DNA of 6,045 bases from Chloroflexota bacterium (GTDB lineage Bacteria > Chloroflexota > Anaerolineae > Fen-1058). The position numbers were made by a program, and so were the translations under genes. The stretch covers positions 1-6,045 of the forward strand of contig JACRBO010000160.1 in NCBI GenBank assembly GCA_016219235.1, given 5' to 3'. Positions 1-6,045 of the stretch are shown one piece after another. The notes beneath the pieces are model-generated. The model saw only the letters and a list, made by a program, of their open reading frames with translations. It did not search any database and was not told the DNA's origin. The stretch's first letter is position 1. Each line of letters opens with the position of its first letter.

Positions 1-1006
1 CGGTCGGGATGTGGGTGGGCAGGCTGGTCGCCCCATCGAGGTACGCCACGGCCAACGCCACGGCGAGGTAGCCCATGTCCGACGGCTTCTGCGCGATGAC
101 CATATCGACGGTCTTGGCCTTTAGCATCTCGATAGCGGTGGAAGTCGCATCAAAGGCCACGACCTTGACCTTGCCGCTGAGACCCTTATTGGCTACCACC
201 TGGCCCGCGCCTTGCGCGCTGAAGACGTTGGTGCCGAAGATACCGGCCAGGTCAGCTTCCTTCTGGAGCATGGCTTCGACCTGTGCCTGAGCCTTCGACG
301 GATCGTCGTCGTTGTAGTCCACGCCGACCAACGTCACATCGGGATGTTTGGCGACGACTTCCTTGCAGCCCTTCTCGCGAGCGTCGGTGCTGCTGATACC
401 GGGCTTGACGTTCTGAACGTAGATCTTGCCCTTGCCACCGATCGCCTCGATCAACGCTTCGCACGCGATCTGGCCGCCGAGTTCATTGTCGGAAGCGATG
501 AAGGACAGCGGGAATTTCACCGGGCCGTTGACGTAGTCGCCATCGCCGATATAGGTATCGACGGTGAGGATGGGCAGACCGGAGTCGCTGGCTTTTTGCA
601 GCGGGGCGATCATCGCGTCTTTGTCGACGGGCGCCAGGAACAGCGCATTCAGATCGCCGCGAGCCACCATCGCGTCGAGCATCGGGGTCTGGCTGGTCAC
701 ATCCCATTTCGCCGGGATCTGCACGACGAGTTCGACGCCCAGATCAGCAGCGGCCTGCGCCGCGCCGCGCTGCATCGTGAAGTAGAACGGATCCTGCACG
801 CCGGCCAGGAAGCCGATCTTGTAGGGTTTAAGAGTGGCTGGCTGCGCTGGCTGCGCTGGTTGGGCCGGTTGGGCGGGTTGAGCAGGCTGAGCGGGTTGGG
901 CCGGGGCGGGGGCTTGCGTTGGGGCGGCAGCCGGGGCACAGGCTCCCAGCAACATCGCCGCAACAACTAACAGGCCGACAACATTGAAGATGCGTTTGGT
1001 CTGCAT
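1..1006 (-). CDS. Sugar ABC transporter substrate-binding lipoprotein (partial, C-terminus off the left edge)
   Basis: Extracellular sugar-capture component of an ABC importer, of the ribose-type periplasmic binding protein fold (Peripla_BP_4/RbsB-like). 335 residues are visible and the frame stays open to the window edge. Residues 1-23 form a lipoprotein signal: M-Q-T-K-R, a hydrophobic stretch, then lipobox L20-G-A-C23, so the mature protein is probably lipid-anchored at Cys23. Residues 24-57 are a low-complexity Ala/Pro/Gln linker. The binding fold starts near residue 62 (YKIGFLAG, then DPFY at 72-75). Later fold landmarks are LPILTVDTY, the SDNELGG segment at the lobe crossover, and VVAFDAT near the C-terminal lobe. 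Family members usually run 340-370 residues, so only a short tail is missing. The start is supported by AAGGAG 10 nt upstream. The permease and ATPase genes are not in view and would be expected further left. The family is clear, but the sugar is not predictable; ribose, allose, xylose or an inositol-like ligand are all possible. Confidence 0.93.
   Translation of the reverse strand, partial: MQTKRIFNVVGLLVVAAMLLGACAPAAAPTQAPAPAQPAQPAQPAQPAQPAQPAQPATLKPYKIGFLAGVQDPFYFTMQRGAAQAAADLGVELVVQIPAKWDVTSQTPMLDAMVARGDLNALFLAPVDKDAMIAPLQKASDSGLPILTVDTYIGDGDYVNGPVKFPLSFIASDNELGGQIACEALIEAIGGKGKIYVQNVKPGISSTDAREKGCKEVVAKHPDVTLVGVDYNDDDPSKAQAQVEAMLQKEADLAGIFGTNVFSAQGAGQVVANKGLSGKVKVVAFDATSTAIEMLKAKTVDMVIAQKPSDMGYLAVALAVAYLDGATSLPTHIPT
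839..901 (-). repeat. Seven Ala-Gln-Pro repeats in the lipoprotein linker
   Basis: Residues 36-56 of the binding lipoprotein are seven consecutive A-Q-P units, encoded by degenerate 9-bp DNA repeats. The codons vary (CAA/CAG, CCC/CCG/CCA/CCT), so this is an established protein repeat rather than a fresh slippage tract. It lies between the lipidated Cys23 and the folded domain, so it most likely acts as a flexible tether that holds the binding domain off the membrane. Confidence 0.9.
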
Positions 1007-1016
1007 GACTTACTTT

Positions 1017-1022
1017 CTCCTT
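1017..1022 (-). promoter_or_regulatory. Ribosome binding site of the binding-protein gene
   Basis: On the minus strand the sequence reads AAGGAG followed by 10 nt and then ATG at 1006. This is a strong Shine-Dalgarno match, and it fixes the start of the lipoprotein at the methionine that gives a normal lipoprotein signal. Confidence 0.8.
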
Positions 1023-1046
1023 CTTGTCAGGGTGGGGTGTTCAAGG

Positions 1047-1060
1047 TTAAAGCGTTTCAA
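1047..1060. promoter_or_regulatory. LacI-family-like dyad in the transporter leader (tentative)
   Basis: TTAAAGCGTTTCAA is an imperfect dyad centred on CG, with 5 of 7 positions symmetric. The AAAnCGnTTT core resembles operators used by LacI-family sugar regulators. It lies about 40 bp upstream of the lipoprotein start and downstream of the predicted transcription start, a position where a repressor would block elongation. No LacI-family gene is in the window, and a match of this quality can occur by chance. Confidence 0.25.
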
Positions 1061-1090
1061 TCAGTAGCGGGCTGCGGGCGTGAAATCGAT

Positions 1091-1136
1091 CTGTTTCGTC
1101 GGGGTGTCGACCTCCTGTCGAGCGAAGATGGAACAG
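1091..1136 (-). other. Possible folded segment in the transporter mRNA leader
   Basis: The predicted transcript of the lipoprotein gene has a leader of about 160 nt. Within it CTGTTTCG (1091-1098) can pair with CGAA (1123-1126) and AACAG (1132-1136), with a small bulge. This encloses a perfect 5-bp hairpin, TCGAC/GTCGA (1107-1121), whose loop on the transcript reads AGGAG. I recognise no known riboswitch class here. The hairpin could be incidental. Confidence 0.3.
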
Positions 1137-1174
1137 AGTGTTATTATTTCATCAACCTGTCTTGAGTGATGTTT

Positions 1175-1203
1175 ATACTATCACGCAAAAATCACCGTGT
1201 CAA
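1175..1203 (-). promoter_or_regulatory. Sigma-70-type promoter for the sugar-binding lipoprotein gene
   Basis: On the minus strand a perfect -35 box TTGACA (1203-1198) is followed by exactly 17 nt and a -10 box TAGTAT (1180-1175, 4 of 6 consensus). TATAAA lies 3 nt further down as an alternative -10. Transcription would begin near 1168, leaving a leader of about 160 nt before the ATG. The -35 box directly abuts the tandem repeat array at 1204-1245, so whatever binds the array can reach this promoter. Confidence 0.7.
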
Positions 1204-1245
1204 GATGCAAATGTTTGACTTTTGATGCAAACCCATTGACTTTTG
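1204..1245. promoter_or_regulatory. 20/21-bp tandem repeat array, putative operator shared by both divergent promoters
   Basis: Two adjacent copies of a unit beginning GATGCAAA and ending TTGACTTTT(G) lie head to tail. GATGCAAA is at 1204-1211 and 1224-1231; TTGACTTTTG is at 1215-1224 and 1236-1245. The offset is 20-21 bp, about two helical turns, so proteins bound to each copy would sit on the same face. A further GCAAA at 1185 and an 11-bp partial copy (AATGTTTGACT) at 1210-1220 and 1272-1282 extend the pattern towards both genes. The array fills the gap between the two -35 boxes and overlaps the plus-strand one. It is the best candidate binding site for the DeoR-type regulator encoded next door. 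The assignment to that protein is inferred from position. Confidence 0.65.
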
Positions 1246-1263
1246 CCAGGGCAATGATATAAT
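1236..1263 (+). promoter_or_regulatory. Sigma-70-type promoter for the DeoR-type regulator gene
   Basis: TTGACT (1236-1241, 5 of 6 consensus) is followed by 16 nt and a perfect TATAAT (1258-1263). Transcription should start near 1270, giving a leader of about 35 nt. The -35 box is part of the second repeat copy of the operator array, and the spacer contains a 12-bp palindrome (TTGCC-AG-GGCAA, 1243-1254). Both facts point to repression or autoregulation at this promoter. Confidence 0.8.
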
Positions 1264-1271
1264 CGCCTATG

Positions 1272-1291
1272 AATGTTTGACTATTAACATT
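1272..1291. promoter_or_regulatory. Dyad between the transcription start and RBS of the regulator gene
   Basis: AATGTT and AACATT form a perfect 6-bp inverted repeat with an 8-bp centre, just downstream of the predicted transcription start. Its left arm is part of a third copy of the AATGTTTGACT element also found at 1210-1220. The placement suits a second operator for autorepression. It could also be a weak mRNA hairpin. Confidence 0.4.
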
Positions 1292-1295
1292 TAGT

Positions 1296-1300
1296 GGAGG
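1296..1300 (+). promoter_or_regulatory. Ribosome binding site of the regulator gene
   Basis: GGAGG lies 4 nt before the ATG at 1305. The match is strong, although the spacing is slightly short. It fixes the start so that the helix-turn-helix begins a few residues into the protein, as is usual for DeoR proteins. Confidence 0.75.
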
Positions 1301-1304
1301 AATT

Positions 1305-3026
1305 ATGGCCGATCGTGAGCGCCCGGATCGCATTGTCAACCTCATCGACGAGCACGGTTTTCTGACTATCAGGGAATTGAGTGAACGGCTCAACGTCTCG
1401 GAAATGACGATCCGGCGTGATTTGATGCAGCTGGAGGAACAGAATCGAGTTAAGAAAACATACGGGGGGGCCGCTTCCATCCGATCGGCCGCAAGTGGCG
1501 CGATCGAGACCGTTGAAGCCGTACCCGATCAGAAGCAGATCGGCCCGTTGGTCGATACGATCGATGTCCTGATCGCTACGTCGGTCAATGCCCGGTACGA
1601 TGCGCTGTTGCTCGATCGCGCACAGAAACGCAAGATTCCGGTGATTGCGGAATCGGTGCAGCTGCCCGAGGCAGTCACCGTGGTGGCGGTCGACAACTAT
1701 CAGGCCGGCCACGATCTGGGCGTGTGGGCGGGGGGCCATTTGCGGCAGCGCGGTCAGGCCGGCGGCCGCCTGCTCGACCTGTCGTTTCACCTGCCCAACA
1801 CGCAGACGCGCAGTCAGGGTTTCTGGGCGGGTCTGCGCGAGGCGCTGCCCGGCAGCCAGCTGGTGCTGTCAATCGATGCGCAATCGCAGTATCACACGGC
1901 GTATCAGGTGGCCGGCGACGCGCTGACGGTGCACCCTGACATCAACGTGATCTTCGCCATCAACGACTCCACCGCGCGCGGCGCGCTGCATGCCTGCCGC
2001 GATCTGCAACTCGACCCGGCCAACATCATGGTGGTCACATTCGGCCTGGAGGGCGACACGCTCATCGACGAGCTGATGGCCGATCGGTATTGCAAGGCGG
2101 GCCTGGCCATGTTTCCCGAGATCGTCGGTTTGACGTGCATCGAAGCGGCGATTGCGGCGTACAATCATCAGCCGCTGCCCGATCAATTCGTCACACCGCA
2201 CATCGTCTTGACTAAAGAGACGCTGCCCGATTTTTACACGCATGAGGCGAACGGCTGGAAATTGAACTGGGCGGTGGCCCGCCGCCGATTGACGATCCCG
2301 GTCCCGATCGAGCCGTCTGCCTCACGCGGCGCGAAACGCCTGCCGCGCCAGATCGGCGTGACGGTGCCATTCAGCGAACACGAATGGTATAAGAATCTTT
2401 CGGCGATTTTGCACGAGAACGCGGCGCGATCCAAAATCGGCTGCCAGGTTCTGGAACCCGATCAAAGTCTGCGCGACGAAGTGGACCTGCGGCGGCGGCA
2501 AATTGCGCGGCTGGCGGCGGGGCTGGTGAATGCCGGCGACGTGATCCTGATCGACGGCGGCGAGATTGCCAATTATCTGGCCGAAGAACTGAGGCAGAAA
2601 CAAGACGTTACGGTGATCACCAATTCGGTGACGGTGTTTAACACACTGAATCGAACGCCGGGGCTGGTGCTGATCTCGACGGGCGGGGCGGTGCGGTATA
2701 GCAGCCAGGTCCTCGTCGGGCCGACCGCTGAGAGTGCGCTGCGCGATCTGCGCGCCGACAAGTTGTTCCTGACCGTGAGCGGCATCGCCTTCGATTTTGG
2801 CCTGTCGCACACCAACATCTCCGAAGTCACCATCAAGCAGGCGATGATCCGTTCGGCGAAGGAAGTGATTTTGCTGGCGGACCATACGTGCTTCAGCCAT
2901 GAGTCGGTGATTCAAGTTGCCCCGTTGAATGTGGTGGACAAAGTTATCACCGACGATGCGCTGCCCGCCAGCGTGCGTCTCGATCTGTCCAAGCTGGGGC
3001 TGCAACTCATTCTGGCGCGCGACTGA
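1305..3026 (+). CDS. DeoR-type transcriptional regulator fused to a sugar-binding (PBP-like) module
   Basis: A 573-residue cytoplasmic DNA-binding regulator, over twice the usual DeoR length (about 250). Residues 5-56 are a canonical DeoR winged helix-turn-helix: FLTIRELSERLNVSEMTIRRDL, then the KKTYGGA wing. Residues about 75-315 resemble a ribose-type PBP fold: DVLIATSV, IPVIAES, AVDNYQAGHDLG (cf. SDNELGG in the neighbouring lipoprotein), NVIFAINDSTARGA, MVVTFGLEG. A Pro/Arg-rich linker (323-347) follows. Residues 348-386 (IGVTVPFSEHEWYKNL onward) look like the first strand-helix-strand of a PBP. Residues 392-555 are a DeoR effector domain: GDVILIDGG, VITNS, STGGAVR, KQAMIRSAKEVILLAD, VITDD. 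The usual DSGTT and SK effector-loop residues are replaced (D417-G-G-E-I; C529). Divergent from the transporter gene and sharing a repeat array with it, it probably regulates that gene and itself. The ligand is unknown. Confidence 0.92.
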   Translation: MADRERPDRIVNLIDEHGFLTIRELSERLNVSEMTIRRDLMQLEEQNRVKKTYGGAASIRSAASGAIETVEAVPDQKQIGPLVDTIDVLIATSVNARYDALLLDRAQKRKIPVIAESVQLPEAVTVVAVDNYQAGHDLGVWAGGHLRQRGQAGGRLLDLSFHLPNTQTRSQGFWAGLREALPGSQLVLSIDAQSQYHTAYQVAGDALTVHPDINVIFAINDSTARGALHACRDLQLDPANIMVVTFGLEGDTLIDELMADRYCKAGLAMFPEIVGLTCIEAAIAAYNHQPLPDQFVTPHIVLTKETLPDFYTHEANGWKLNWAVARRRLTIPVPIEPSASRGAKRLPRQIGVTVPFSEHEWYKNLSAILHENAARSKIGCQVLEPDQSLRDEVDLRRRQIARLAAGLVNAGDVILIDGGEIANYLAEELRQKQDVTVITNSVTVFNTLNRTPGLVLISTGGAVRYSSQVLVGPTAESALRDLRADKLFLTVSGIAFDFGLSHTNISEVTIKQAMIRSAKEVILLADHTCFSHESVIQVAPLNVVDKVITDDALPASVRLDLSKLGLQLILARD

Positions 3027-3041
3027 CCACCGCTACAAACG

Positions 3042-3074
3042 AATCGGGCGAGTCCATCGACTCGCCCGATTTTT
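3042..3074 (+). terminator. Rho-independent terminator between convergent genes
   Basis: A perfect 13-bp GC-rich stem (3042-3054 with 3059-3071) closes a 4-nt CATC loop and runs into a T tract at 3070-3074. It begins 15 bp after the regulator's stop codon and matches a classic intrinsic terminator for plus-strand transcripts. It also lies 15 bp beyond the kinase stop on the minus strand. There the following T run is poor, so it may end that transcript less efficiently. Confidence 0.9.
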
Positions 3075-3088
3075 GATTCTCGTCAAAT

Positions 3089-4141
3089 TTAGTCGCAGCA
3101 GTCGCGTGTCCACACCCGCAGCCCGTAGCGGCTCAAATAGATGGGGATGTTCTTGAGCAGCGTGTTTTCCTGCTCGATCTCGCGGATCATGGCGCGCTTG
3201 ACTTGCGAGATGTCGCCGGTCAGGATCGTCACCGACCCGCCATCGCCGCCCGCGCCGTTGACCTTCCAGCCCAGCGCGCCGTGCTCGCGCGCGATGTCGA
3301 TCACGCGCTGATGCTCCGGGCTGACCAAGTCGGGATGCAGCCGCCGCTGCGCCTCCGTGTTGTCGATCATCGCCGCGCCTAACGCCGCGAAATCACCGGC
3401 ATAGACGGCATCGCGCGAGCGGGGGGCGGTGTCGCGCAAGTCCGCGATCTGCTGACAATCCGGCCCGGCATTCTCCAGACTGCGAATCACCATCTCATGC
3501 ACCGACGACGATTGATGCGACTTGCCCAGATAGATCAGCACCAGGCGGCGCTCCAACTCCCACCATGTTGAGTTGGGCACAACGATGGGCGAGACCGAGG
3601 CGTGCGGATACTGGTACATCTCGATGTAGTTGATGCCGCCATAGGCCGCACACAATTTATCTTGAATGCCGCACTGTTGATGCAGCATCTCCGTCTCGAT
3701 GCGCTGCGCGGCCAGGGCCACCTCGTGCGGCGTCATGCGGCCCGGCGACAGCGAATCGAGCGCGCCGATGAGTGCGACCGTCACCGCTGCCGACGTGCCG
3801 GTCGAAGCCCCGCCGGGCGCTTCCGAATAGATCGTGACTTCGAAACTCAAATCGTCGGGCACACGCATGTAGGCGATCGCCGCTTCGAGCAGCGGGTGTT
3901 TGTCCCAGTGTTTTTCGGGATTGACCGCGTAGCGCTCGCCGTAGTTCTCGGCGTTGATCACAATCCGTTCTTCGTGATCGATTTCGGGATAAACTTTGAT
4001 CTGCACTTCGGCATACGGGTACACGCCGATATTGAAGATGCGGCCGTGACCGGCAAACCATGTGTCGGTCCAGCCGCCGTTGTCGCACACGCGAATGGGC
4101 GCGACGCTGTTGATGATGGCGGTGGGTTGGCGAGTGGGCAT
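3089..4141 (-). CDS. GHMP-superfamily sugar kinase (heptose-7-phosphate kinase/fucokinase-like)
   Basis: A cytoplasmic ATP-dependent small-molecule kinase of 350 residues, normal for the family. Motif 1 is at 14-40 (APIRVCDNGGWTDTWF, cf. the GGWTDTPP-type motif of fucokinases and HddA-like kinases). The ATP-binding motif 2 is at 107-119 and reads E-A-P-G-G-A-S-T-G-T-S-A-A, an altered form of PxxxGLGSSAA. G158-I-Q-D161-K, followed by AAYGG, matches the region carrying the catalytic Asp. Motif 3 is VNGAGGDGG (294-302). I chose the ATG at 4141, not the in-frame ATG at 4237: the extra 32 residues do not fit the family and a -10 box lies between the two. No strong Shine-Dalgarno is visible. It converges on the sugar regulator and diverges from moxR, so it is transcribed alone. 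The substrate is probably a hexose or heptose(-phosphate). A role in the neighbouring sugar pathway is inferred from location only. Confidence 0.9.
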   Translation of the reverse strand: MPTRQPTAIINSVAPIRVCDNGGWTDTWFAGHGRIFNIGVYPYAEVQIKVYPEIDHEERIVINAENYGERYAVNPEKHWDKHPLLEAAIAYMRVPDDLSFEVTIYSEAPGGASTGTSAAVTVALIGALDSLSPGRMTPHEVALAAQRIETEMLHQQCGIQDKLCAAYGGINYIEMYQYPHASVSPIVVPNSTWWELERRLVLIYLGKSHQSSSVHEMVIRSLENAGPDCQQIADLRDTAPRSRDAVYAGDFAALGAAMIDNTEAQRRLHPDLVSPEHQRVIDIAREHGALGWKVNGAGGDGGSVTILTGDISQVKRAMIREIEQENTLLKNIPIYLSRYGLRVWTRDCCD

Positions 4142-4171
4142 AGCAAGCGTCCAGAAAAATAGGTTGCGTCG

Positions 4172-4177
4172 ATTATA
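4172..4177 (-). promoter_or_regulatory. -10 box of the GHMP kinase promoter
   Basis: The minus strand reads a perfect TATAAT at 4177-4172, about 30 bp upstream of the chosen ATG at 4141. No good -35 box is found at 16-18 bp (GCAACC at the 17-bp position), so the promoter may be weak or activator-dependent. Its position inside the longer alternative reading frame argues for the shorter kinase. Confidence 0.5.
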
Positions 4178-4196
4178 CAATGAAGCGGGAAGTTGG

Positions 4197-4225
4197 TTGC
4201 CTCGCGGGGCAATCCGAATTATACT
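4197..4225 (+). promoter_or_regulatory. Promoter of the moxR-DUF58 unit
   Basis: TTGCCT (4197-4202) is followed by 17 nt and TATACT (4220-4225), a reasonable sigma-70-type promoter. Transcription would start near 4232, about 35 nt before the ATG at 4267. A TTGCC-N6-GGCAA inverted repeat (4197-4212) overlaps the -35 box and could be an operator. Confidence 0.6.
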
Positions 4226-4266
4226 GCGCACCGACACGACCTCACACCCTGAAGGCGGATTTCCTC

Positions 4267-5229
4267 ATGACTTACACCGTAACCGATGTGCAAGCCCATT
4301 CCGAACGAATCATCGACAACCTGTCGCAAGTCATCGTCGGCAAACGCCGTGCGTTAGAACTGACGGTGATCAGTTTGCTGTGTCAGGGCCATCTGCTCAT
4401 CGAAGATGTGCCCGGCACCGGCAAGACGATGCTGGTGCGTAGCTTAGCGCAATCATTGGGCTGCACCTTCAGCCGCATCCAGTTCACGCCCGATCTACTG
4501 CCCAGCGATGTGACGGGCACGTCGATCTACAACCAGCACACGCAAGCCTTTGAATTCCGGCCTGGTCCAATCATGGGGCAGATCGTGCTGGCCGACGAGA
4601 TCAATCGGGCCACACCCAAGACGCAATCGGCGCTGCTGGAAGCGATGGAGGAGCGGCAGATCACGATCGACGGGGTGGCGCATCCGCTGCCGTCGCCGTT
4701 CATGGTGATCGCCACGCAGAACCCGATCGAGTACGAGGGCACGTTTCCGCTGCCGGAGGCGCAGCTCGATCGGTTTCTGCTGCGTATCGGGTTGGGCTAC
4801 CTGAACAAACGCGAAGAGATCGAGATGATCGACGATCAGCAATTCGATCATCCGTTGAAGACGATCGCGCCGGTGCTGGCGCTGGACGAACTGGCGGCGA
4901 TGCAGGCAACCGTGAAGACGGTACACGTGTCGCCCGCTGTGAAGCAATACATCGTGGACATCACGTTTGCCACGCGCGATCACGAGCACTTTTATCTAGG
5001 CTCAAGCCCGCGCGGCAGTCTGGGGTTGTTCCGCGCGGGGCAGGCGCAGGCCGCGCTGCAAGGCCGCGCGTACGTGCTGCCCGACGACATCAAGGCGCTG
5101 ACCGAACCCGTGCTGGCCCATCGCCTGATCGTCACGCCCGCCGCGCGCCTGAAGAAATTCACCGCGAATAAATTGTTGCGCGATGTGTTGCAGCAATTGC
5201 CGTTGCCGGATTCGCAGTCAGTCAAGTAG
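4267..5229 (+). CDS. MoxR-family AAA+ ATPase
   Basis: A cytoplasmic AAA+ ATPase of the MoxR branch, 320 residues, the typical length. Visible elements in order are: VIVGK (22-26); Walker A D47-V-P-G-T-G-K53-T54; Walker B I106-V-L-A-D-E111; sensor 1 ATQNP (149-153) with the MoxR-typical [16 protein letters not shown] following; arginine finger R169 in LDRF; and sensor 2 S247-P-R249-G. All catalytic residues are present, so it should hydrolyse ATP. MoxR proteins are thought to act as chaperone-like ATPases that help assemble or activate partner complexes, often ones with von Willebrand A domains. A DUF58 gene follows 67 bp downstream on the same strand, the usual partner. I chose the ATG at 4267 over an in-frame ATG at 4180: the -10 box at 4220-4225 lies downstream of the latter, and the extra 29 residues match nothing in the family. 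The RBS is weak. The symbol moxR would be generic, so I leave it blank. Confidence 0.95.
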
Positions 5230-5263
5230 TGAGATAGTCATGTAGTTCGATAGTCGGATAGTG
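5224..5263. repeat. Five-copy degenerate octamer repeat (NNRTAGTN)
   Basis: TAGT recurs at exact 8-bp intervals: 5227, 5235, 5243, 5251 and 5259. Each copy is preceded by G or A, giving units aagTAGTg, agaTAGTc, atgTAGTt, cgaTAGTc and ggaTAGTg. CAGT at 5219, in phase, hints at a decayed sixth copy inside the coding region. The first unit supplies the TAG stop codon of moxR. The remaining spacer to 5296 shows no terminator, so read-through into the DUF58 gene is expected. Confidence 0.75.
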
Positions 5264-5296
5264 TCGCTTGATCGCTGACTCGCCATCGGAAACAAC

Positions 5297-6045
5297 ATGC
5301 CCTTTCGTTCGCTGTTTCGCCATTTCATCGATCGCCTCTCCCGGCTGTGGCGCATGCCGCATGCCAGCGGCGAGGCTCGCATCGAGGTGCATCAGCCGTT
5401 GTGGCTGATCGCGTCGTTAGGGTTGTTAATTTGGTACGCGCTCTGGCCGCTGCCGCTGGTGTTGACCGGGCTGGTGGTGTTGCTGAGTTTGCTGTTAATC
5501 GGCTGGCTGTGGACGCGATCGCTGGCGCGGCGGATCGAAGCGTCGCGCACGCTGCGCTATACCGCCGTGCAGGTGGGCGATGAACTGGAAGAAGTGATCG
5601 AGATCATCAACCGCGCGCCACTGCCGCTGATCTGGGCGGAAGTAGTCGATCACTCGACCGCGCCCGGCTATGCCCTGTCAGGGGTGTACATCGTAGGCGG
5701 CGGCGCGGTGAAGCAGTGGCGTGTGACGACCACCTGCACTCAACGCGGCGTATTTATGCTCGGCCCGTGGGAGTTGATCACCGGCGATCCGTTTGGCATT
5801 TTTCGCGTGCGGCAAACATACACGCAGGGCCGTGAAATCCTCGTGTATCCGCCGCTGGCTTCCCTCTCGCCCGAACTGCTGCCGCGCCAGCGACAGGTGG
5901 GCGATCTGCAACGGCTGAATCACGCCACGCACGCGGACACGATCAACATGGCGACGACCCGCCCATACTTGATCGGCGATCCGTTACGGCGCGTGCACTG
6001 GCGCACCACGGCGCGGCACAACAAATTGTTCGTGAAGGTGTTTGA
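5297..6045 (+). CDS. DUF58 domain membrane-anchored protein (partial, C-terminus off the right edge)
   Basis: 249 residues are visible and the frame is open at the window end. Residues 34-50 and 52-72 are two hydrophobic segments that form a membrane hairpin. A basic N-terminus (residues 1-20) precedes them and Arg-rich TRSLARR follows, so both flanks are probably cytoplasmic. The next region resembles the beta-rich part of DUF58 proteins (GDELEEVIEIINRAPLPLIWAEV; TQRGVFMLGPWELITGDPFGIF). The family signature is at 224-246: Y224-L-I-G-D-P-L-R-R-V-H-W-R-T-T-A-R, then LFVK. Family members usually have another 100-150 residues with a von Willebrand A-like fold, which lie off the window. It follows moxR on the same strand. 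MoxR-DUF58 pairs are common and their partner interaction is presumed, but the biochemical role is not established here. The start is supported by its position before the membrane hairpin and a weak GGA 6 nt upstream. Confidence 0.9.
   Translation, partial: MPFRSLFRHFIDRLSRLWRMPHASGEARIEVHQPLWLIASLGLLIWYALWPLPLVLTGLVVLLSLLLIGWLWTRSLARRIEASRTLRYTAVQVGDELEEVIEIINRAPLPLIWAEVVDHSTAPGYALSGVYIVGGGAVKQWRVTTTCTQRGVFMLGPWELITGDPFGIFRVRQTYTQGREILVYPPLASLSPELLPRQRQVGDLQRLNHATHADTINMATTRPYLIGDPLRRVHWRTTARHNKLFVKVF

Follow-up and report, generated by a model that had tools for sequence, protein, structure and literature searches.

A DeoR-type transcriptional regulator with an unusual sensor module is described here from a contig of a Chloroflexota bacterium (NCBI GenBank assembly GCA_016219235.1, contig JACRBO010000160.1, positions 1 to 6,045). 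The whole stretch analysed, 6045 bases, is called the window. Its long open reading frame (ORF), at 1305-3026 (+), encodes a protein of 573 amino acids. In all likelihood this is a DeoR-type regulator with a sugar-binding periplasmic binding protein (PBP) domain inserted, circularly permuted, into the linker between the helix-turn-helix (HTH) and the DeoRC domain. The permuted order, its conservation and the full set of conserved positions are established by sequence comparison and supported by structure models. A sequence-only reading of this DNA had offered a true circular permutation as the first of its options, beside a second-PBP remnant or an insertion, and that first option is now supported. 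Its coordinates and residues proved right on the ORF and its translation (residue 75 at nucleotide 1527, IDVLIATSV at 86-94, RQIGVTVPFSEHEWYKNL at 348-365, CQVLEPDQ at 380-387). The layout of the gene is as follows (pLDDT, predicted local distance difference test).

1305..3026, + strand: DeoR-type regulator of 573 aa, very probably with a circularly permuted type I PBP module inserted (ORF, Pfam, protein search)
1320..1487, + strand: HTH_DeoR DNA-binding domain, residues 6-61 (Pfam, E 3.3e-19)
1488..1544, + strand: flexible linker, residues 62-80 (pLDDT <50)
1548..2276, + strand: PBP body, residues 82-324, corresponding to positions 89-331 of the 338-position canonical profile, spanning the canonical fold from strand C almost to its C-terminus (BLASTP, profile, model)
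2277..2345, + strand: connector between the former C-terminus and the former N-terminus of the PBP, residues 325-347 (profile pieces)
2346..2462, + strand: moved first strand-helix-strand of the PBP, residues 348-386 (profiles, shuffles, models)
2379..2390, + strand: HEWY, residues 359-362, within the moved piece (joint alignment)
2457..2522, + strand: continuous helix from the PBP piece into DeoRC, residues 385-406 (DSSP of the model)
2493..2954, + strand: DeoRC domain, residues 397-550 (Pfam)
2553..2567, + strand: DeoRC loop D-G-G-[PE]-I, residues 417-421, replacing GTT/STT of the four ordinary DeoR proteins compared

Both ends of the protein are those of the DeoR/GlpR family, since Pfam assigns its HTH to HTH_DeoR and its C-terminal part to DeoRC, the same pair as in ordinary members such as E. 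coli DeoR (7l6l), AgaR and GlpR. The usual size with a short linker is not kept: the three ordinary proteins measure 253-265 aa, whereas some 316 extra residues lie here between the two ends, and the GTT/STT loop has become G-[PE]-I. The protein is thus a DeoR-type regulator with an insertion rather than an ordinary DeoR/GlpR member. LacI/GalR regulators such as CcpA also combine an HTH with a PBP-type sugar sensor. However, the LacI type carries its PBP in canonical order at the C-terminus, without DeoRC; a LacI-type HTH is not among the 25 Pfam families listed for the regulator, and its N-terminus is not of the LacI/GalR kind.

The inserted module has the sequence and the fold of a two-lobed sugar-binding type I PBP (Peripla_BP_4), but the strand A-helix-strand B that should begin such a domain is missing in front of it and is found after its C-terminus. 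Pfam aligns residues 72-286 with positions 50-254 of the 258-position Peripla_BP_4 profile, the first 49 positions being missing there, and the model has no strand within residues 62-80, as expected from the earlier claim that the first strand-helix-strand is absent from the module front. The placing of the moved piece after the PBP C-terminus and before DeoRC also stands; the end of the PBP body lies near residue 324 rather than at 315. The description of a helix followed by CQVLEPDQ before DeoRC holds for the piece 348-386 itself, with the correction that the helix after it (385-406 in the model) continues into DeoRC. The lipoprotein encoded next to the regulator, which had been proposed as a convenient template, is only a distant relative (BLASTP 18.5 bits, E 1.3). 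It was set aside for canonical HEWY-type PBPs of other bacteria, which serve better.

The cleanest evidence for permutation, at the sequence level, is the independent finding of such canonical HEWY-bearing PBPs through a different motif. A one-genome-per-species scan with two peptide patterns from the family alignment, which misses members, returned 27 loci: 25 regulators from Chloroflexota records, matching over nearly their whole length with 43-76% identity, and two loci with the PBP body only. The latter encode canonical sugar PBPs with signal-like N-termini, one from Ammoniphilus resinae (L026) and one from an actinomycete (L027). Both were found through the pattern [AI]GLAMFPE and fail the other pattern, PFxEHEWY, yet both carry NFGSHEWYQN near the N-terminus. 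BLASTP splits the window protein against the Ammoniphilus PBP into two pieces in swapped order, residues 82-322 pairing with 102-343 (33% identity, E 4e-43) and residues 336-365 with 29-67 (E 7e-4). With the actinomycete PBP as subject, the body alignment begins at residue 53, its first part being a gapped pairing of the linker with the HEWY region of that PBP, and the second piece pairs 350-441 with 37-122 (E 1e-4). These E-values were computed against three subject sequences.

The same division appears throughout the family. A canonical profile of length 338 was built from 117 PBPs of 280-400 aa, taken from 120 listed. It matches all 121 regulators of the window's set; in 119 of them both pieces reach E <0.01. 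In the window protein they run over 82-324 (profile 89-331) and 348-445 (profile 37-128, E 1.7e-4). Matches on rhizobial plasmids at 29% identity provided the seed for a second, alpha set: a protein search with one of them was run, and 118 of the 120 listed, those of at least 560 aa, were kept. Its named members belong to Alphaproteobacteria or Pseudomonadota. The PBP body is found in all 118, the moved piece at E <0.01 in 73 of 118, and H[DE]WY after residue 300 in all 118. Without an E-value cut-off, the moved piece is present in 121/121 and 118/118. The median extents on the profile are complementary, 85-334 plus 37-129 in the window's set and 92-330 plus 37-90 in the alpha set, and the two pieces are separated by a median of 20 residues (range 11-33) in the 121 regulators. 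Three of four further relatives show the same swapped reading, the fourth (locus L032), without a readable frame, being left out. An N-terminal PBP profile gave no match above 3 bits before residue 200 among the 239 regulators of both sets. Together with the disorder of residues 62-80 in the model, this answers the first of two observations named in advance as fatal to a permutation, a complete canonical first strand-helix-strand within residues 57-110.

Score controls bear on whether the resemblance of residues 348-386 to the missing piece, noticed in the sequence-only reading, exceeds chance, and it does. With residues 342-397 placed in front of the body, the window protein scores 210.5 bits against the profile instead of 194.6, a gain matched neither by 200 shuffles of the piece (maximum 199.4 bits) nor by 37 pieces slid along the same protein (maximum 198.7). 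Over the 121 regulators the mean gain from moving the piece is 28.1 bits (11.3 to 40.1), against 0.25 (maximum 6.4) for shuffled pieces, and a single match then spans the whole domain in 120 of them. A profile of the canonical N-terminal piece only has its best match at the expected place in 121/121 (6.0 to 38.2 bits) and 118/118 regulators of the two sets. On 121 shuffled regulators it gave rows in 49 only, the best at 0.2 bits. In the window protein alone this profile spans strand 1 and helix 1 only (10.9 bits, residues 349-374); strand 2 of the moved piece rests there on the wider family and the model.

When PDB sequences were searched with the family alignment, 47 rows came up. Three of them are CcpA chains (whole-chain E 8e-5 to 3e-4); their best stretch matches regulator residues 340-403 or 347-403 to the beginning of the PBP core, although no stretch passes alone.

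Residues 348-386 could also be the remnant of a second PBP, truncated in a tandem fusion, which would leave the first lobe incomplete. Tandem PBPs do exist (the divergent neighbour at L024 has two Peripla_BP_4 stretches, and P0175 and P0182 combine part of a PBP with a whole one), and duplication followed by trimming is a usual route to permutation. However, the two pieces complement each other in every one of the 239 regulators without an E-value cut-off, a pattern that argues against an incomplete lobe. This remnant is judged very improbable: as a route of origin it fits the inserted permuted domain, whereas as a description of the present fold it is incompatible with it.

The structure models argue in the same direction. 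In the full model, residues 62-80 have pLDDT <50 and the first strand of the module is 88-91; the mean pLDDT of residues 381-390 is 66. The module alone (residues 78-394, without DeoRC) is predicted with a predicted template modelling score (pTM) of 0.88, its strand-helix-strand being retained. With VIA, the longest alignment of the module among 50 listed rows is to TpMglB-2, covering 261 residues and reaching residue 393 at 11% identity, whereas the other 49 rows stop between residues 303 and 341. TpMglB-2 was not among the 50 rows listed by Foldseek. From the fold of the lone module and the TpMglB-2 alignment, 348-386 probably packs as strands 1-2 of the same lobe, and the second observation named as fatal, packing of this segment only with DeoRC, was not made. 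A module that folds alone and aligns through the piece also speaks against a second-PBP remnant.

It speaks equally against the piece being an N-terminal extension of the DeoR effector domain with a mere resemblance to a PBP strand-helix-strand. The piece does stand directly before DeoRC, and the next helix is continuous with that domain. On the other side, the three ordinary DeoR proteins lack the piece: the N-terminal-piece profile has no match in any of the three, and the full canonical profile yields only negative-score rows, in two of them. The effector part of the AgaR model begins at position 82, the DeoRC match to 7l6l at residue 391, and the piece keeps its fold without DeoRC. Such an extension is therefore considered extremely improbable.

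The conserved positions complete the picture of a PBP module. For a joint alignment, the 121 regulators were cut and reordered canonically by script and set with the 117 canonical PBPs; 45 columns have the same residue in at least 85% of both groups. From the moved piece they include H359, E360, W361 and Y362; from the body, E116, S117, R169, N220, D221, F246, G247, E249 and G250. In the 121 regulators H359, E360, W361, Y362, E116, R169, N220, D221, F246, G247 and E249 reach at least 96%; H, W and Y of HEWY each do so in the canonical PBPs as well. H359, W361 and Y362 are even invariant in the 121 regulators, a further point against a second-PBP remnant. By alignment, then, the module has the full set of family-typical positions: the moved piece supplies HEWY, the body E116, S117, R169, N220, D221 and FGxEG. 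When the Ammoniphilus PBP is aligned with RbsB, the H, W and Y of HEWY fall opposite N13, F15 and F16, which are ribose contacts in RbsB. Because of this correspondence, a complete cleft seems to need the moved piece.

The loop of DeoRC has changed as well. Of the 121 regulators, 104 have P or E at position 420 and 103 have I at position 421, where E. coli DeoR has GTTT and three ordinary DeoR proteins have TTT or STT; the GTT-type loop of DeoR/GlpR is thus missing in most of these regulators. The alpha set was left out of this count, the pattern having failed in 78 of 118. The GTT-type loop belongs to the sugar-phosphate site of DeoRC, and its replacement suggests that sugar-phosphate sensing by this domain has been altered or lost. 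These observations bear on another explanation, in which the permuted fold is real but the module acts as a rigid spacer or dimerisation element without sugar sensing, DeoRC remaining the sensor. The well-kept DeoRC fold is in line with it. Nevertheless, positions shared with transport PBPs at 96% or more in 121 regulators, and a DeoRC loop without its GTT, make it unlikely.

For the inserted, permuted PBP domain, the most probable layout is as follows. A short connector links the former ends of the PBP, and new ends were opened between strands B and C of lobe 1. Both new ends therefore leave from one lobe, one through the flexible linker to the HTH and the other through the helix to DeoRC. 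It is likely that the permutation, by putting both ends on one lobe, allowed insertion into the linker. The cytosolic module may then bind a free sugar, which would close the lobes and shift the HTH against DeoRC through the shared helix. Acting through the flexible linker at one end and the shared helix at the other, this closing could alter how the regulator binds DNA at the divergent promoter and relieve repression of the divergent sugar-transporter gene. The ligand, the allostery and the operator binding of the regulator are all inferred.

The design is widespread. A protein search with the regulator gave 1167 matches at E 0.001 or better; the best 120 are mostly of about 570 aa with the same domain list, the few named organisms being Anaerolineae and Thermoflexales. 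At least 3 of 400 phylum genomes matched at E 1e-40, including the centre genome and one with a canonical PBP only, a lower bound since at most three candidates were scored per genome. At the order level, 4 of 25 genomes matched, the centre genome included. On the sequence evidence, the permuted design is conserved in two phyla, Chloroflexota and Alphaproteobacteria. In a quick tree on body columns only, the 26 window-type regulators, the 20 alpha-set regulators and a thinned selection of 10 canonical PBPs each form one clade; the window lipoprotein, one of three outgroup rows, was left out because its match was short. The branching order of the three clades is unsettled, with long branches meeting, and the tree is compatible with a single origin of the permutation. 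Origin by tandem duplication and trimming is possible, because tandem PBPs exist.

Some related proteins were seen in passing. The divergent neighbour at L024:3560-5671 (-) is a tandem sugar-binding protein of 704 aa. In P0175 and P0182, which are near-identical copies, the whole PBP is of the HEWY type; they could be duplication intermediates or assembly artefacts. Genome G003 (behind L013) has another full-length regulator match at 40% identity, and one more in two adjoining pieces at 39%.

Natural type I PBP permutations are little reported, and literature searches gave one described class, that of TpMglB-2. According to PMC4990184, TpMglB-2 (Tp0684, 'Type Ic / Cluster Bc') is a natural circularly permuted type I sugar PBP, a glucose lipoprotein whose first three N-lobe strands have moved to the C-terminus, and most members of its class are tethered, exported lipoproteins. 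The permuted topology of this class is found in the module by sequence and, in the model, from alignment ranges only: strands A and B follow the old C-terminus through an added connector in both proteins, over the 261-residue alignment. The cut differs, since two strands have moved here and strand C (88-91) stays in front, where three have moved in TpMglB-2. The latter is a lipoprotein, whereas the present module is cytosolic, in a DeoR regulator that starts with an HTH.

In sequence, the kin of the module are canonical HEWY-type PBPs (33% identity) and not TpMglB-2 (11%), and a permutation independent of the TpMglB-2 event is the likelier. Canonical ABC (ATP-binding cassette) transporter PBPs of this type from Ammoniphilus, the actinomycete and a Chloroflexota sample (L033) have 32-37% body identity to the module and share its HEWY, E-S, R, N-D, FGxEG and MFP positions. 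However, they are unpermuted, with signal-like N-termini and without a DNA-binding part. These close unpermuted relatives form with the permuted module a direct before-and-after pair, and the family allows testing why permutation helps, insertion being eased by two ends on one lobe. Unlike in the TpMglB-2 class, the permutation here has another cut, sits inside a transcription factor and is kept in two phyla. A wider proposal can be put forward tentatively: permutation may have made a transport PBP into an insertable allosteric switch, with sensing moved from DeoRC (its GTT loop lost) to the PBP cleft, and this may be a second, independent natural type I PBP permutation, spread through Chloroflexota and Alphaproteobacteria.

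Word searches of the open-access PMC literature brought up no permuted PBP within a DeoR regulator. Annotation hides such cases, since most source names read 'DeoR family', 'substrate-binding domain-containing protein' or the like. Engineered sensors include PBPs fused to DNA-binding domains (PMC6079105) and a domain inserted into a PBP (PMC6335823). They share with the regulator the logic of a PBP input and an output domain, but they are man-made, whereas the regulator is natural and common to two phyla. It is thus a natural counterpart of these hand-built sensors, and it offers designers of PBP-based biosensors and allosteric repressors a template from nature.

Upstream of the regulator, the window holds its likely target gene and three copies of a candidate operator.

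2..1006, - strand: divergent sugar ABC-transporter lipoprotein (canonical PBP), running off the window, likely target gene (ORF, Pfam, NCBIfam)
1212..1223, + strand: candidate operator copy TGTTTGACTTTT (repeat search and cross-locus count)
1236..1243, + strand: candidate operator copy TTGACTTT (repeat search and cross-locus count)
1274..1285, + strand: candidate operator copy TGTTTGACTATT (repeat search)

Of the 26 regions upstream of the regulator (window and L001-L025), 21 contain TTGACTT, with 27 copies in total, against at most 7 regions in 500 base shuffles and at most 6 in 500 sets of random stretches from 25 of the loci. The window copies lie at 1215 and 1236, with a one-change copy at 1277; the fullest copy, AATGATTGACTTTTAACATT in L008, has AATG...CATT ends. 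Weaker than this cross-locus count, a repeat search of the window alone gave two-copy families, mostly near chance except TGTTTGACTNTT (1 of 200 shuffles with as many), and TGTTTGAC itself occurs in 5 of 26 upstream regions. TTGACTT is thus a candidate operator of the regulator family, its core having been picked after viewing the 8-mer table. Five of 26 regions lack this core, 7 of 27 copies lie on the opposite strand, and TTGAC is also a -35-like string.

A divergent neighbour was scanned at 5 of the 25 genome loci: a solute-binding protein at L002, L010, L016 and L024, and an FGE-sulfatase type at L011. An ABC ATPase comes further along at L010 and L016, together with a permease and a fructokinase-like ROK kinase at L010 and with a GlcNAc-2-epimerase-type enzyme at L016. 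NCBIfam gave no match for L022:3635-4756. In Shinella, the genes that come after the regulator, on its own strand, are those of a sugar ABC transporter.

The window lipoprotein has a Pro-Ala-Gln repeat linker (AQPAQPAQP...) at 836-930 (-), after its lipobox-like region. Downstream of the regulator, 3092-4150 (-) encodes a GHMP kinase whose best NCBIfam model, HddA heptose-7-phosphate kinase, scores 90.9 bits, far under its cut-off of 600. At 4267-6043 (+), a MoxR-type AAA ATPase precedes a DUF58 protein cut off by the window end.
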